Assembly (NCBI RefSeq): GCF_000146285.1
Contig: NZ_GL385912.1
Coordinates: 1,681,251 to 1,745,250 of the forward strand
Direction: 5' to 3'
DNA length: 64,000 bases
Source of the DNA: Mobiluncus curtisii subsp. curtisii ATCC 35241
GTDB lineage: Bacteria; Actinomycetota; Actinomycetes; Actinomycetales; Actinomycetaceae
The notes under the pieces: model-generated
The model's database searches: none
The model's input: the letters and a program-made list of their open reading frames with translations, nothing else
Told to the model about the DNA's origin: nothing
Shown: in pieces, positions 9,833 through 19,475 of the stretch
Numbering within the stretch: the stretch's first letter is position 1
How the letters are laid out: each line of letters begins with the position of its first letter
Program-made: the position numbers and the translations under genes

Positions 9833-10849
9833 ATGAAACTAAATGAGGGTATTCACTTGGTTCGGCTACCTGATGGCTCCGTCGAGCTGTGCGCCGGGTT
9901 GGAAACCATGTTTCGCTTTCCGCAATGTTCCGAAAAAGAGTTCCAGCTACTGCAACGCCTGGTGGCAGGCTGTACCCGCCCGGATTTGTCCGATTTTGCC
10001 AAAGCCTGCCGCATCCCCTTGACCAGAGTCTCGGAAATGCTGCGGACCTTGGCTGATGCGGAACTGCTGCAACTGCGCAATCCCCGCCTGTACGGCGGTC
10101 CCGATGACGGTTTTTGGTCACGAGTGGGGGGCGCCAAGATGCGCCGCACCTATCGGCTTCGCCAAAAACTGAGCGTCTCCCTCAATCGAGCCGACCGCAT
10201 GGCACAACTGCTGGCGGTGGAACTGGGCGCCGCCGGCATCGGCAAGATTCAGGTCCCCACCTCCACCCGCAGTCCCGAACCGGACTTGGAAACTGCCCCC
10301 CATCCGCGGCTCACCACGAAAGACCTGGTGGAACAGCGTCGACGGCACGCCACGGTAACGACGCAGCGAATCGCGGCGGACTTGGCGGTGCAGTTCAGCT
10401 GGGGCATCCCCGATCCGGTAGCGGCACAAAAAGCGATGCAGACCAATCAATCTTTCCTGGCAGTGGTGGCAGGCCACGATTTTGTTGAGGTCGGACCGTT
10501 GGTCGTGCCCGGACTGACACCGTGTACATCCTGTCTCGCCCTGCACCAAGCCACAGCGGTGACGCACCTGGCAGAACGCGCCGCGAACCTGCACTGGGCA
10601 GCATTTCCACGGGTAGAAACCGCGTTGGCAGGAGTGGGGGCAGCGATTGCGGCAGCGCAGGCTCTGGCGTTCCTAGATTGCCGTGCTCTGCATCCCGGCG
10701 ATGTCACACGCATCTCGGTGGATGGCACCGTCACCACGCGGCACTTTGAGTCTCACCCGGAATGCGATTGCAGTTACCTCCCGATGGAACTTGACGTCCC
10801 TCCAGAACCGGCATTTGCGAAGCGGGCACGGACAGTTCCCGCTGCCTGA
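9833..10849 (+). CDS. ThiF/E1-like protein with a putative zinc site (adenylation function doubtful)
   Basis: 338 aa. The first about 95 residues resemble a winged-helix or peptide-binding domain. The middle has a Rossmann-type beta-alpha element (LAVELGAAGIGKIQV, about 125-140) as in ThiF/MoeB/E1 proteins and the docking half of TOMM cyclodehydratases. The C-terminal half has CTSC (about 228) and HPECDC (about 307), which together could form a zinc site. I see no clear adenylation motif. GAGGTG precedes ATG 9833. It lies between uvrD2 and the zincin-like gene, as the Rv3196-type gene does in mycobacteria. Its substrate is unknown. Confidence 0.75.
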   Translation: MKLNEGIHLVRLPDGSVELCAGLETMFRFPQCSEKEFQLLQRLVAGCTRPDLSDFAKACRIPLTRVSEMLRTLADAELLQLRNPRLYGGPDDGFWSRVGGAKMRRTYRLRQKLSVSLNRADRMAQLLAVELGAAGIGKIQVPTSTRSPEPDLETAPHPRLTTKDLVEQRRRHATVTTQRIAADLAVQFSWGIPDPVAAQKAMQTNQSFLAVVAGHDFVEVGPLVVPGLTPCTSCLALHQATAVTHLAERAANLHWAAFPRVETALAGVGAAIAAAQALAFLDCRALHPGDVTRISVDGTVTTRHFESHPECDCSYLPMELDVPPEPAFAKRARTVPAA

Positions 10850-12364
10850 CTAGGCGTCAGAAGCGGGATTTGGCGGGCTGTCCGGGTCCGTCCCGTCACC
10901 GGAACCATCGGGAGAATCGGTACCGAAACGGTCTTGTGACACCTCCGCGTCACCCTCCGAGTCGATACCGGGTTCCAACCCTTTGGCGTATCCCAAAGTC
11001 CCTTGCAGCATGGCCTCTAAATCGGCTTCCAGAGGGTCTTTCGGACCTTCTCCTGCCAAACGCGCCACGAACTGGTCGGGGGCGTCGAAGTCGCTTTCCT
11101 CCGGCAGCAGGTCCGGGTGGTCCCACAAGCCTTCTGCCCCGGCTTCTCCGAGCTTTGCCACCAGCTTGGACCACAAGGCGCTGGCTTCGCGCAATCGTTT
11201 GGGTCGCAGTTCCAAGCCGATGAGGGCGGCGAACGCTTTTTCTGCCGGTCCACCGGTGGCGCGGCGCCGATTCATCATCTCTCGCAAAGCGCCTATCTGG
11301 GGTAACGCCCCTGCCAAGCAGCGCGTGGTCACCATGTCGACCCAGCCCTCCATGATTGCCAGCAGGGTTTCCAGACTTTGTTTCGCCGCGGTTTGGTTGT
11401 TCGTCTGGCTGGGAGTCAGCACGCCTTGGGCAATAAGTCTATGCAGGGCATCTTGATCCATCGGGTCCAGCCCTTGCAGGGCAGACTCCATCGCCTGCAA
11501 ATCGAAGTTGATGTCCCTCGCATAGTCCTCAATCGCTTTAATGACGTGCATCCGCAACCACGGCACCGCGTGATAAAGCCGCACGTAGGCAGCTTCACGA
11601 GTCGCCAGGAAGGTCAACACCGGCTCGACTTCCAGGCTGATGTCGGCAGCGAACTTTTCCACGTTTTCCAGCACTATTGCCGCTTGATTCACCTCTCCAA
11701 CCGGCAGCCCGATGTCGGTCGAGCCGAAACTCTCCGCCGCTAAAGTCCCCCAGGCCTGACCAAACTGCAGCCCAAACAGATTTGAGCTCAACACCCCCAG
11801 CAGGGAATCCAGATTCAGCGACGCCGGGTCACCGTCCTTGGAAAACAGCCCCATCAGCTGATGCAGCTCGGGTGGTCCGGAAGAAATCTCAACGTGTAAA
11901 TCCCCGTCCGCAATGTGCGCAGACAATGCCTGTTTCATAGAATCAGACGTCTTCGCAGCCACCGGGGTAACCAAGATTTTCCAGACTTCAGACGAGGCAT
12001 CCAGCCACTTTGGTACGGACAGGGCAGCATAGCTGGCGGGGGGTGGCGTGAGCGAAGTGACCGGGTCGAGACGCAAATTCGCTTCTGACAGAGCTTGACG
12101 CACTCGGTCTGCATCCGCGGAAGTCACCACTTGGGTTGCCCCGCCCAGGCGCCCCAAGGCGGTCATGCGCGCCAAGTCCCAGTTCACCGGTTCATCGGAA
12201 CTGGATAGCAGCGACTGCAACGGGAAAGCAAAAATACCTTCTCCACCAGAAAACGCCGAAAACGGGGTGCCGGAACGGAGCTTTTCTTCCATCTCGCGGG
12301 CTTTTTCCTCGCCAAAAACCTGGCGCAGCATTTGAGCCCAGTCAGGCATCTCACTTTCATCCAT
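10850..12364 (-). CDS. Zincin-like (DUF2342/PF10103) protein, Rv3195 type
   Basis: 504 aa of the actinobacterial family often annotated as zinc-dependent metalloprotease or F420-biosynthesis-associated protein. Recognisable parts are FSAFSGGEGIF near the N-terminus, the helix AYVRLYHAVPWLRMHV (about 255-270), and EGWVDMVTTRC followed by RRRATGGPAEKAF and GLELRPKRLREA (about 340-400). From family memory, the sister branch has EGH at the putative metal site; here it is EGW, so protease activity is doubtful. The acidic tail is disordered. ATG 12364 lies 18 bp from the divergent PDZ-Lon gene; the stop abuts that of the ThiF-like gene with no gap. Confidence 0.85.
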   Translation of the reverse strand: MDESEMPDWAQMLRQVFGEEKAREMEEKLRSGTPFSAFSGGEGIFAFPLQSLLSSSDEPVNWDLARMTALGRLGGATQVVTSADADRVRQALSEANLRLDPVTSLTPPPASYAALSVPKWLDASSEVWKILVTPVAAKTSDSMKQALSAHIADGDLHVEISSGPPELHQLMGLFSKDGDPASLNLDSLLGVLSSNLFGLQFGQAWGTLAAESFGSTDIGLPVGEVNQAAIVLENVEKFAADISLEVEPVLTFLATREAAYVRLYHAVPWLRMHVIKAIEDYARDINFDLQAMESALQGLDPMDQDALHRLIAQGVLTPSQTNNQTAAKQSLETLLAIMEGWVDMVTTRCLAGALPQIGALREMMNRRRATGGPAEKAFAALIGLELRPKRLREASALWSKLVAKLGEAGAEGLWDHPDLLPEESDFDAPDQFVARLAGEGPKDPLEADLEAMLQGTLGYAKGLEPGIDSEGDAEVSQDRFGTDSPDGSGDGTDPDSPPNPASDA

Positions 12365-12369
12365 GAGAC

Positions 12370-12375
12370 TATAGT
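12370..12375 (+). promoter_or_regulatory. -10 box for the PDZ-Lon gene, overlapping the opposite promoter
   Basis: TATAGT ends 7 nt before ATG 12383, which suits leaderless transcription. It shares five of six positions with the minus-strand box at 12371-12376. Confidence 0.6.
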
Positions 12376-12376
12376 A
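12371..12376 (-). promoter_or_regulatory. -10 box for the zincin-like gene, overlapping the opposite promoter
   Basis: On the minus strand this reads TACTAT and ends 6 nt before ATG 12364. The palindrome ACTATAGT (12368-12375) supplies most of both -10 boxes. Confidence 0.6.
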
Positions 12377-12382
12377 TCCGTG

Positions 12383-13600
12383 ATGAACACCGATGCGCTG
12401 GATAAGGGGGCGGACACGCCCGTACCCAAAGATTCACTGACGCTTGCATCCGGAACTGATGCGCCACCAGAAGACCCTGCTGACGCGCCTGAACCGACCC
12501 GCTCCCGCTGGTCTTTGAGTCGTTGGGTCTGGGGTCTCGTCCTCATCGTCCTGGGCGGGTATTTTCTGTTCCTCTATTCCTACCCGGTGGTCATCAACTA
12601 TCCCGGACCGACTTTTGACGTACTGGGTAAGGATTCTAAGCAGACTCCCCTCATCGAGGTAAAAGGCGCGAAAACCTATCCGAATCACAACGGACAACTC
12701 CGCATGACCACGGTTTCTTCCCTGGGCGGGCCCGGTTCCATGGTCAGTGGTTGGGACCTGATTATGGCAGCATTTAACCCGAATGCCACCATCTTGCCGG
12801 TGGATGTGGTCTATCCCCGCAACGTCTCTAGCAAAGATATTAAGAAACTCGGCGTGCAACAGATGGACCAATCCCAGCTTTCTGCCGAGGCGGTGGCATT
12901 GGAAACCTTGGGATATAACGTGAAAATCACCTGGTCTGTGGCTGAAGTTGCCAAGAAATCCCCCGCGTTCGGAGTCTTGCATCGCAAAGACGTGGTACGG
13001 ACCATAGCCCGACCTGGTCAAACCCCGGTGACTGTCCACACGGTCGAGGACTTGCGAAAATTCCTGGAAGGAGTGCCGGGCGGCGACACTATAGAACTCG
13101 GCATCGTCCGCGATGGACAAGCCCAGACGGTGCGTATGAAAACTGCTCCGGCAAAATTACCAAAAGGCAAAATCGGGAAAGGTTCGCAACTCAGCATCTA
13201 TTTGGCTTCGGATGTAAAGATTCCCCTCGACATCACTTTCCATCTGCAAGACGTGGGCGGACCTTCCGCAGGGACCATGTTTGCCTTGGGAATAGTGGAG
13301 CAGCTCACACCCGAACACCTGACAGGGAAATCGGTGATTGCCGGAACCGGGACTATCGACCTGGCTGGAAAAGTCGGTCCTATCAGCGGAATTGCCCAAA
13401 AGATGGCGGGGGCAAAAGCTGACGGAGCTAAGTTTTTCCTGGCTCCGACCCAGAACTGTGACGAAGTCGTGGGTCATATCCCGAAAGGGCTGACGGTGAC
13501 AAAAATCGGCACGTTTTCCGAAGCACTGGACGCAGTGCAAAAAATCCGCGACGGAAAGACCTCTGAACTGCCTCAATGCACGGTTCCCGCCCAGAAATAA
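12383..13600 (+). CDS. Membrane-anchored PDZ/Lon-type serine protease (YlbL/Rv3194c type)
   Basis: 405 aa. A short cytoplasmic N-terminus precedes one membrane helix (about 52-72), a beta-rich region, a PDZ domain (about 200-275) and a C-terminal S16 Lon-like protease domain (about 275-395). The Ser-Lys dyad is visible: the Ser in GGPSAGTMFALG and the Lys in the QKMAGAKADGAKFF region. The active domain should face outside the membrane. ATG 12383 is chosen because TATAGT lies 7 nt upstream; GTG 12380 is also open. Homologues in Bacillus (YlbL) process envelope or checkpoint proteins; the substrate here is unknown. Confidence 0.92.
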   Translation: MNTDALDKGADTPVPKDSLTLASGTDAPPEDPADAPEPTRSRWSLSRWVWGLVLIVLGGYFLFLYSYPVVINYPGPTFDVLGKDSKQTPLIEVKGAKTYPNHNGQLRMTTVSSLGGPGSMVSGWDLIMAAFNPNATILPVDVVYPRNVSSKDIKKLGVQQMDQSQLSAEAVALETLGYNVKITWSVAEVAKKSPAFGVLHRKDVVRTIARPGQTPVTVHTVEDLRKFLEGVPGGDTIELGIVRDGQAQTVRMKTAPAKLPKGKIGKGSQLSIYLASDVKIPLDITFHLQDVGGPSAGTMFALGIVEQLTPEHLTGKSVIAGTGTIDLAGKVGPISGIAQKMAGAKADGAKFFLAPTQNCDEVVGHIPKGLTVTKIGTFSEALDAVQKIRDGKTSELPQCTVPAQK

Positions 13601-13606: not shown

Positions 13607-13612
13607 GTGGAT

Positions 13613-14386
13613 ATGACTGAGAGAATAGAGCGCGCAGACGGTCGTCGGATGGACCAGCTCCGCGAGGTGACTTTGCACATGGATTGGGTCAGTGCCCCGG
13701 AGGGCTGTGTGTTGGTGTCTTGCGGGAACACCAGGGTGCTGTGTTCCGCCAGCTTAACGGAGGGGGTCCCCCGGTGGCGCAAAGATTCTGGCTTTGGCTG
13801 GGTCACCGCCGAGTATGCCATGCTCCCCCGTGCTACCGACACCCGTAACACCCGCGAGTCAGTCAAAGGGAAAATCAGCGGGCGCACCTCAGAGATTTCC
13901 CGACTCATCGGACGGGCGTTGCGCGCTGCGGTGGATTACGCCGCGCTGGGGGAAAACACTATTGCGATAGACTGCGACGTTTTGCAAGCCGATGGGGGTA
14001 CCCGTACCGCCTCGATTACCGGGGCTTGGATTGCCCTGCAGCGCGCCATTGCCGTGGGGCGGGACAGCGGTTTTATCCCCGGCAATCCCACCCGTGACTC
14101 GGTCTGTGCTATTTCGGTGGGTATCATTGATTCCATCCCCCGCCTGGACCTGCCCTACGAGGAAGATTCTCGTGCCGAAACTGATATGAACGTGGTGATG
14201 ACCGGCTCCGGATCCCTGGTGGAAGTACAGGGAACCGCAGAAGGCGCCCCGTTTAGCCGTGCCGAGCTGGACGCTTTGCTGGATTTAGCACAGGCTGGTT
14301 GCCGTGACTTAACCCGGCTGCAGCGCGCGGCAGTAGACAGCGCACCCGGAGCGGTGCTGACGCTAACAGATGGAGTAATCGCGTGA
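13613..14386 (+). CDS. rph: Ribonuclease PH
   Basis: 257 aa, the phosphorolytic 3'-5' exoribonuclease that trims tRNA 3' ends. It begins with [12 protein letters not shown], typical of RNase PH, and shows the conserved TRNTRES segment (about 85), the core [13 protein letters not shown] and [13 protein letters not shown] with the catalytic Asp. Length is normal. GTG 13607 is also in frame, but ATG 13613 fits both the family N-terminus and the TAGACT box. It overlaps rdgB by four bases (GTGA), so the two are translationally coupled; rph-rdgB is a common actinobacterial pair. Confidence 0.97.
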
Positions 14387-15078
14387 GTATTTTGACTTCT
14401 GTACCGGATTTGCGGGATAAGAACGCTCAGAAACTGAAACTGCCACCGGAGGCTCAGGTGGTGATGGCTACGGGTAATACCCACAAAGTTCGGGAAGTTG
14501 AAGAAATTTTGCGTCCTTTGGTGCCCAGTCTGCGCCCTGGGGGGATTGTCGCCGCCGGCACGTTGGGAGCGCCAGAACCGCGCGAGGACGGTACATCATT
14601 CTCTGCCAACGCTCTGATTAAGGCACGGGCCTTGGCCAGCGTGGTGGATGTGCCGATTTTGGCAGATGACTCCGGTTTGAGCGTGGATATTTTGGGTGGC
14701 TCCCCAGGAATTTTCTCCGCTCGGTGGTGCGGGCATCACGGCGACGACCGCGCCAACCTGGAACTTTTGTTGAACCAGCTGCAAGACATTGACGATGGCT
14801 ATCGCACGGCAGCTTTTATCTGTGCCGCGGTGCTGCTGATTCCGGGAGGCGGAACATACCTGGGAAACGGGGTTATGGGCGGACGATTGGTGCGCGAGCC
14901 GAAGGGAAAAAATGGCTTCGGATACGACCCAATTTTCCTGGCAGACGGTCAGGAGGTCACCAATGGTGAGCTCAGCAAGGACGCCAAGAACGCTATTTCA
15001 CACCGCGCCAAAGCCTTTAGCCAGATTGCTCCGCAGCTCGAGGCAATGCTGGGGGTTCGCACTCGTCTCACCCGGTAA
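14383..15078 (+). CDS. rdgB: XTP/dITP pyrophosphatase (house-cleaning NTPase)
   Basis: 231 aa, HAM1/RdgB family; it hydrolyses XTP, ITP and dITP to the monophosphates. Motifs are [16 protein letters not shown] (substrate-binding SxNxxK-type region), [14 protein letters not shown] with the catalytic Asp, GFGYDPIF and ISHRAKAF. A leader of about 27 residues before the core is longer than usual. GTG 14383 overlaps the rph stop. Confidence 0.96.
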
Positions 15079-17995: not shown

Positions 17996-18124
17996 CCGGC
18001 TCCCGTCACGCCACCGAGACGGGAATGAACAGATGCCGGCTTTATCCCCGTCCTGGTGACAGGTAAACGCGCGAGCGGGATGCCGGCGTCTCCAAGTTGA
18101 AACGGAAAACCCGCCGGACGCGAC

Positions 18125-18130
18125 TATAGT
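18125..18130 (+). promoter_or_regulatory. -10 box for a leaderless pncB mRNA
   Basis: TATAGT ends 7 nt before ATG 18138; no ribosome-binding site is seen. Confidence 0.6.
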
Positions 18131-18137
18131 TATACCT

Positions 18138-19475
18138 ATGAACACGCGCGAATCGACTGCCTTACTGACTGATATGTACGAGCTGACCATGGTGGACTCC
18201 GCTTTGGAGCACGGGATGGGACAGCGCCAATGCGTGTTTGAGATTTTTACCCGACGATTTCCCGCTTCGCGGCGTTTCCTGGTGATGGCTGGAGTGGCGC
18301 GGATTTTGGAGGGACTCAAGCGTTTCCAGTTCGATGATTCTCAGCTGAAATACCTCTCGGATCACAAAATCGTCGGACAGAAAACGATTAAGTTTCTGGA
18401 GGATTACCAGTTTTCCGGCGACATTTTCGGCTATCCCGAAGGCGAAGTATTCATGGTGAATTCGCCAATTTTGACGGTTCGCGGGACGTTTGCCGAGACT
18501 TGCCTGTTGGAAACCTACCTGCTGTCGATTTTGAACTTCGACTGTGCGGTGGCGTCGGCGGCATCCCGGATGACCATTGCCGCTCACGGCAGACCCTGTC
18601 TGGATATGGGGGCGCGCCGGGTACATGAGCGGGCGGCTGTTTCCGCTGCTCGCGCCGCACAAATTGGCGGTTTTCAGGGTACGTCTGACTTAGAGACCGG
18701 GAAACGATACGGGATTCGCGCTATCGGCACTGCTGCCCACGCCTTTACCCTGCTGTTTGAGGATGAAGAAGCCGCTTTCACCGCTCAGATTGAGTCGATG
18801 GGTCCGGACACTACACTGCTGGTAGATACCTACGACGTGACTGCTGCCGTCGAGAAAGCGGTGCGAATTGCCAGAGCTGCCGGGGGGGAACTGGGTGCGG
18901 TTCGTTTGGATTCGGGTGACCTGGTGGCAGGCGCGTTTAAAGTTCGCCAACAGCTCGATGATTTGGGGGCGACTTCCACCAAGATTACGGTGACCAATGA
19001 TCTGGATGAATACGCTATTGCCGGTTTGGGCGCCGCGCCAGTGGATTCCTACGGGGTGGGCACCCGATTGGTGACCGGTTCGGGGATTCCGACCGCTGCC
19101 CTGGTCTACAAGCTGGTCGCTCGTGAGGACGCAAACGGGAATCTGGAATCGGTGGCGAAACGCTCGGTTGAGAAGTCGACTCGGGGCGGATTGAAATGGG
19201 CGGGACGCGCTATTGAGGATCACACTGCCATGACCGAGCTGCTGGTGACTGCCCCGAACCGGGAGGCTGCTACGGAATACTTCGCGAGTCACGAGGCTCG
19301 CCCGTTGCAGCGGGATTTCGTAATCGACGGGACTATTGACAAATCTTGGATTGGTCCCGATGCCCTGCAGCGCGCTCAGCAGCACCACATCGAGGTCCGT
19401 AACGAACTGCCTTATCAGGCGTGGCGCTTGAGCGAAGGCGAAGTGGCTATCCCCACAGAATACGTGGACCTTTAG
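18138..19475 (+). CDS. pncB: Nicotinate phosphoribosyltransferase
   Basis: 445 aa; converts nicotinate and PRPP to nicotinate mononucleotide in NAD salvage. It shows the N-terminal LLTDMYELTMVDSAL, the autophosphorylated His in GTAAHAFTLL, the PRPP site VRLDSGDL and the Gly-rich DSYGVGTRLVTG. Length is normal. It is convergent with the DUF3039 gene and overlaps its end by four bases. Confidence 0.97.
   Translation: MNTRESTALLTDMYELTMVDSALEHGMGQRQCVFEIFTRRFPASRRFLVMAGVARILEGLKRFQFDDSQLKYLSDHKIVGQKTIKFLEDYQFSGDIFGYPEGEVFMVNSPILTVRGTFAETCLLETYLLSILNFDCAVASAASRMTIAAHGRPCLDMGARRVHERAAVSAARAAQIGGFQGTSDLETGKRYGIRAIGTAAHAFTLLFEDEEAAFTAQIESMGPDTTLLVDTYDVTAAVEKAVRIARAAGGELGAVRLDSGDLVAGAFKVRQQLDDLGATSTKITVTNDLDEYAIAGLGAAPVDSYGVGTRLVTGSGIPTAALVYKLVAREDANGNLESVAKRSVEKSTRGGLKWAGRAIEDHTAMTELLVTAPNREAATEYFASHEARPLQRDFVIDGTIDKSWIGPDALQRAQQHHIEVRNELPYQAWRLSEGEVAIPTEYVDL

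Follow-up and report, generated by a model that had tools for sequence, protein, structure and literature searches.

The closest described systems are the bidirectional promoters of E. coli and Salmonella, in which -10 elements overlap on opposite strands and positions -7 and -11 are reciprocally paired (PMC12825309, PMC10268837). The rules of this class (Warman et al. 2021, Nat Microbiol 6:746) are taken here as those two papers give them: starts on opposite strands lie 7-25 bp apart, 18 bp being the commonest separation (Warman/Grainger; via PMC12825309), the preferred start distances are 10, 18 and 23 bp (PMC12825309), and a T at -18 from each start is common but not strict. In the Actinobacteria, there is precedent for many leaderless (TA-led) genes and for TANNNT elements without a -35 (PMC3160421, PMC3898074, PMC5784534). 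Closely juxtaposed divergent promoters are a common feature of the M. tuberculosis transcriptome, and the divergent neighbours prpD (Rv1130) and Rv1129c have mapped starts that make both mRNAs leaderless (PMC3898074).

Here we describe an 18-bp spacer between two divergent genes of Mobiluncus curtisii subsp. curtisii ATCC 35241, located within a 64,000-nucleotide stretch of DNA that was analysed as a whole (the window). We read this spacer, with a probability of roughly 0.8, as a bidirectional SigA-type promoter of the 18-bp class, from which two leaderless mRNAs would arise at a shared TATAGTA. The site resembles the promoters of Warman et al. in its overlapping -10 elements, its predicted starts 18 bp apart, its paired -7 and -11 positions and its place between divergent genes. 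However, no leaderless pairs were seen among the E. coli and Salmonella examples of the two papers above, whereas both Mobiluncus messages look leaderless and their start codons would consequently coincide with the predicted transcription starts. Similarly, ordinary TA-led leaderless genes each have their own -10 element, and prpD/Rv1129c, although likewise a divergent pair with two leaderless mRNAs, gives no evidence for one common -10 element, while in Mobiluncus one heptamer appears to serve two genes. The mechanism is thus already known, and the site adds an example, well conserved and unusually compact, to a known promoter type. Two features appear unusual: neither message seems to have a leader, and three such sites are recognisable in one 2-Mb genome.

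Both ORFs flanking the spacer are real genes. The minus-strand ORF (window 10850..12364, 504 aa) belongs by profile match to the zincin-like metallopeptidase family (PF10103, TIGR03624; Zincin_2, E 1.3e-103), and the plus-strand ORF (12383..13600, 405 aa) to the PDZ-Lon proteins (SepM/YlbL-like S16 protease; Lon C-terminal proteolytic domain, E 9.8e-9). Downstream on the plus strand, rph (RNase PH; 13607-14386) starts 6 bp after the end of the PDZ-Lon gene and overlaps rdgB/HAM1 (14383-15078), so that PDZ-Lon, rph and rdgB probably form one operon served by the plus promoter. Beyond the other end of the pair, a plus-strand ORF of 338 aa (window 9833-10849) sits between a uvrD-like gene and the zincin gene; it has a weak, below-cut-off match to TIGR03882 (TOMM leader-binding cyclodehydratase family) and matches no Pfam family.

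Read directly from the DNA, the zincin ATG appears as CAT at 12362-12364 and the PDZ-Lon ATG occupies 12383-12385, leaving a gap of 18 bp (12365..12382, GAGACTATAGTATCCGTG) that, from its sequence and its conservation in the genus, is assigned here to both strands as a putative shared promoter. Within it lie an 8-bp palindrome, ACTATAGT (12368-12375), and the symmetric heptamer TATAGTA (12370-12376), which yields TANNNT on each strand. The plus-strand element TATAGT (12370..12375) stands 7 nt from the PDZ-Lon ATG, and the minus-strand element TACTAT (12376 down to 12371) stands 6 nt from the zincin ATG. The preliminary description of this DNA had placed the start codons 18 bp apart, at 12364 and 12383, and had drawn the same two boxes with the same spacings from the palindrome; the former is correct to the base and the latter agrees with the sequence. 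Just 5' of TATAGT lies GAC (12367-12369) and just 5' of TACTAT lies minus-strand GGA (12379-12377), both of which agree with the [G/C][A/G]N extension known from mycobacteria.

The spacings of the two boxes were compared with a census of long ORFs taken across 2.04 Mb of the M. curtisii genome, in which TANNNT was counted 5' of candidate ATG and GTG starts. A leaderless signature was observed genome-wide at spacings of 6 and 7 nt only: TANNNT preceded ATG 114 times at spacing 6 and 62 times at spacing 7, versus about 19-20 times at other spacings, and preceded GTG 80 and 46 times, respectively, versus about 20 elsewhere. The zincin gene has the first of these spacings and the PDZ-Lon gene the second, and inspection of both upstream stretches revealed no Shine-Dalgarno sequence 5' of either start. 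Leaderless mRNAs are the best-supported reading for both genes. No published transcription start map for Mobiluncus was found; the starts that we infer, by the canonical step from each -10 element, would be the A of the zincin ATG (12364, minus) and either the A of the PDZ-Lon ATG or one base before it (12382..12383, plus), the latter being uncertain by one base because the plus box stands 7 nt, not 6, from its ATG. An in-frame GTG, which all four Mobiluncus species share, abuts the PDZ-Lon ATG (12380..12382, plus); it is a possible but less likely start for this gene, because only 4 nt separate it from TATAGT. Each promoter's -35 region had also been said to lie in the coding sequence of the other gene, which holds as to position, but inspection of the locus showed no -35-like hexamer and neither strand carries a sigma-70-like -35/-10 pair. 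Elsewhere in the window, at 18123-18141 (C1:1699373; ACTATAGTTATACCTATGAACA), the same box occurs in the same context, with TATAGT 7 nt before the ATGAAC of a plus-strand ORF in a leaderless-type arrangement.

The spacer was compared with the rules of the bidirectional class. When each -10 element is taken to end at -7, the predicted starts are 12382 and 12364, 18 bp apart, and placing the plus start at A12383 instead gives a distance of 19, inside the small variation that the authors allow in the accounts cited. If transcription on the plus strand starts at 12382, T12375 is -7 and A12371 is -11; if that on the minus strand starts at 12364, the complements of these two bases are -11 and -7, respectively. 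This is the reciprocal pairing of overlapping opposite-strand elements. With these starts, the base at -18 is T12364 on the plus strand and C on the minus strand; in a leaderless gene, the A that opens the ATG can double as the -18 T of the opposite promoter, here on the plus side. The symmetry of the heptamer is by itself cheap evidence, because any TANNNT followed by A also reads TANNNT on the opposite strand, and an A follows 67 of the 394 leaderless-type boxes in this genome (17%). With reverse boxes so often accidental, one of the two could be the only working promoter, the other being a product of inherent symmetry and the gene that it faces being transcribed, with a longer leader, from within its neighbour, as might be suggested by the zincin gene of most relatives, which has a leader with a Shine-Dalgarno sequence. 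Such an arrangement is unlikely, since both genes show the enriched spacings, neither has a Shine-Dalgarno sequence for use with a leader, and the bases flanking the heptamer on both sides are conserved, including those that would serve one direction only.

Constraint on the spacer was observed within the genus, represented by four Mobiluncus genomes. Spacer identity is 17/18 or 18/18 in all four, and also in M. mulieris ATCC 35243, and CATGAGACTATAGTA(A/T)CCGTGATGAAC is found in 4/4, whereas the four-fold-degenerate sites of the zincin and PDZ-Lon genes are 30-42% identical between distant Mobiluncus species, near saturation. Conservation extends through ATGAAC at one end and no further than the start codon at the other. 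This comparison indicates that the 18-bp element is under strong selection, and the arrangement is kept in related genomes, as the preliminary description had proposed to check. At an identity of 0.31 per site, the chance of an 18/18 match is, by simple arithmetic, below 1e-8. It is therefore hardly credible that the arrangement is a coincidence and the shared box functionless, a reading that conservation across the genus contradicts. The raw pattern CAT-N5-TANNNTA-N6-ATG is in keeping with coincidence, being unenriched over 151 genomes of the family (98 matches versus 99 for the reversed control), and long ORFs on both sides were found at none of 20 matches checked (18 in other genera, two in other Mobiluncus genomes). 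In contrast, both ATG-to-ATG matches in the genome of M. curtisii itself lie between real head-to-head genes.

Two aspects of this conservation count against the promoter reading: the whole 18 bp is conserved, which exceeds what the -10 elements alone require, and the conserved GTG before the ATG is not accounted for. The first, together with the 8-bp palindrome and its partly symmetric flanks, would suit a spacer that is mainly the operator of a dimeric regulator recognising the imperfect palindrome GAnACTnnAGTnTC, with promoters elsewhere or secondary. However, T12377 is replaced by A in two Mobiluncus species, which breaks the outer symmetry there, and the spacer has no close second copy. 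GAnACTnnAGTnTC itself occurs three times in 2.04 Mb versus 1.3 expected, and since both remaining copies are intragenic, it marks no regulon. A palindrome kept throughout the genus and repeated before other genes, as would be expected of an operator, was not found. Given that related palindromes form no regulon and that the arms are less symmetric in two species, it is very unlikely that the spacer is an operator rather than a promoter.

The arrangement of overlapping boxes was also observed to recur in the same genome. Among 267 divergent neighbour pairs, leaderless-type boxes occur on both sides within 60 bp in only five, and the -10 elements overlap in three of these: zincin/PDZ-Lon (gap 18), SpoIIM/RDD (gap 18) and SpoU/pyrE (gap 23). 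The latter two lie outside the window. SpoIIM (minus, C1:831936; L196:11936) and RDD (plus, C1:831955; L196:11955) are separated by the spacer GCTGCTAATTTATACTCA; the TANNNTA heptamer is kept there in 4/4 Mobiluncus genomes with gaps of 18, 18, 19 and 20, though leaderlessness is less certain because the two more distant species have a plus spacing of 8 or 9. The SpoU methylase gene (GTG, minus, C1:1532682; L231:12682) and the pyrE-like phosphoribosyltransferase gene (GTG, plus, C1:1532706; L231:12706), with GCTTTACACTTTATGCTTAAAGC, keep overlapping boxes in 4/4 genomes with gaps of 23, 23, 23 and 22. The predicted start distances, near 18 and 23, agree with two of the preferred distances given for bidirectional promoters in the source cited above. 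On the assumption that all gaps of 5-60 are equally likely, we estimate post hoc a probability near 0.02 that three of five fall within the overlapping ranges; a spacing grid over the same genome showed only a weak excess.

The divergent order of the zincin and PDZ-Lon genes, found in 66 of 79 loci from named Actinomycetes, is old. Most relatives have a longer spacer between the two genes, often with the zincin leader noted above, and leaderless-type starts of the zincin gene are seen in several genera. A shared -10 element at this pair extends beyond Mobiluncus, as three genomes of one other genus of the family (L105/L189, L126/L187 and L186) carry CAGTAGTATATCCGCGTG, with the heptamer TAGTATA. 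Here, the one-base offset is the same and PDZ-Lon has a leaderless-type GTG start 6 nt downstream, but the zincin gene retains a leader with a Shine-Dalgarno sequence; the double-leaderless form was seen in Mobiluncus only. Another sequence, CATAACCTTACCRTARAGCGRATG, is conserved between two other genera of the family (L343, L344), where a short minus-strand ORF begins MTRTKRVKAHDE. Because the plus-strand ORF is also short, this probably reflects coding conservation and not a shared promoter.

Taken as a bidirectional promoter, the spacer would work as follows. The symmetric TATAGTA would serve each strand as its -10 element, RNA polymerase would engage it in only one of the two orientations at any time, and transcription would begin at the A of the facing ATG or one base before it, giving two leaderless mRNAs: a plus-strand message for PDZ-Lon, probably with rph and rdgB, and a minus-strand message for the zincin-like protein. 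Overlapping divergent -10 boxes for two leaderless genes, as the preliminary description had it, remain the best-supported account, with leaderlessness a prediction from spacing. Its further claim that polymerase could not occupy both boxes follows from the promoter geometry and has been stated for the class as a whole (PMC12825309), and we infer the same mutual exclusion for this spacer. Exclusion does not, however, amount to the competition between the two proteins that had also been claimed. In E. coli, basal activity was too low for competition at 5/5 bidirectional promoters tested, and competition was seen only on strong one-way activation. By this analogy, shared low-level expression is more likely than antagonistic control: as a rule, one short site would probably drive both genes at a low level through its -10 elements, and interference would arise only where one direction is strongly activated.

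A broader proposal, which is possible but doubtful, is that a small set of Mobiluncus loci (zincin/PDZ-Lon, SpoIIM/RDD and SpoU/pyrE) fuses leaderless translation with -10 symmetry, such that the start codons stand as far apart (about 18 or 23 bp) as polymerase geometry dictates, and selection ties transcription for both proteins of a pair to one mutually exclusive site. If the promoter reading of the zincin/PDZ-Lon spacer is true, this site would be close to the smallest possible start for divergent transcription and translation, needing one -10 heptamer and no leader, -35 element or Shine-Dalgarno sequence. The 18-bp bidirectional rule could then be read from the bare sequence of leaderless-rich bacteria, in which the spacing of start codons would report that of transcription starts, and the zincin/PDZ-Lon spacer would offer a clean test case for whether polymerase exclusion matters.
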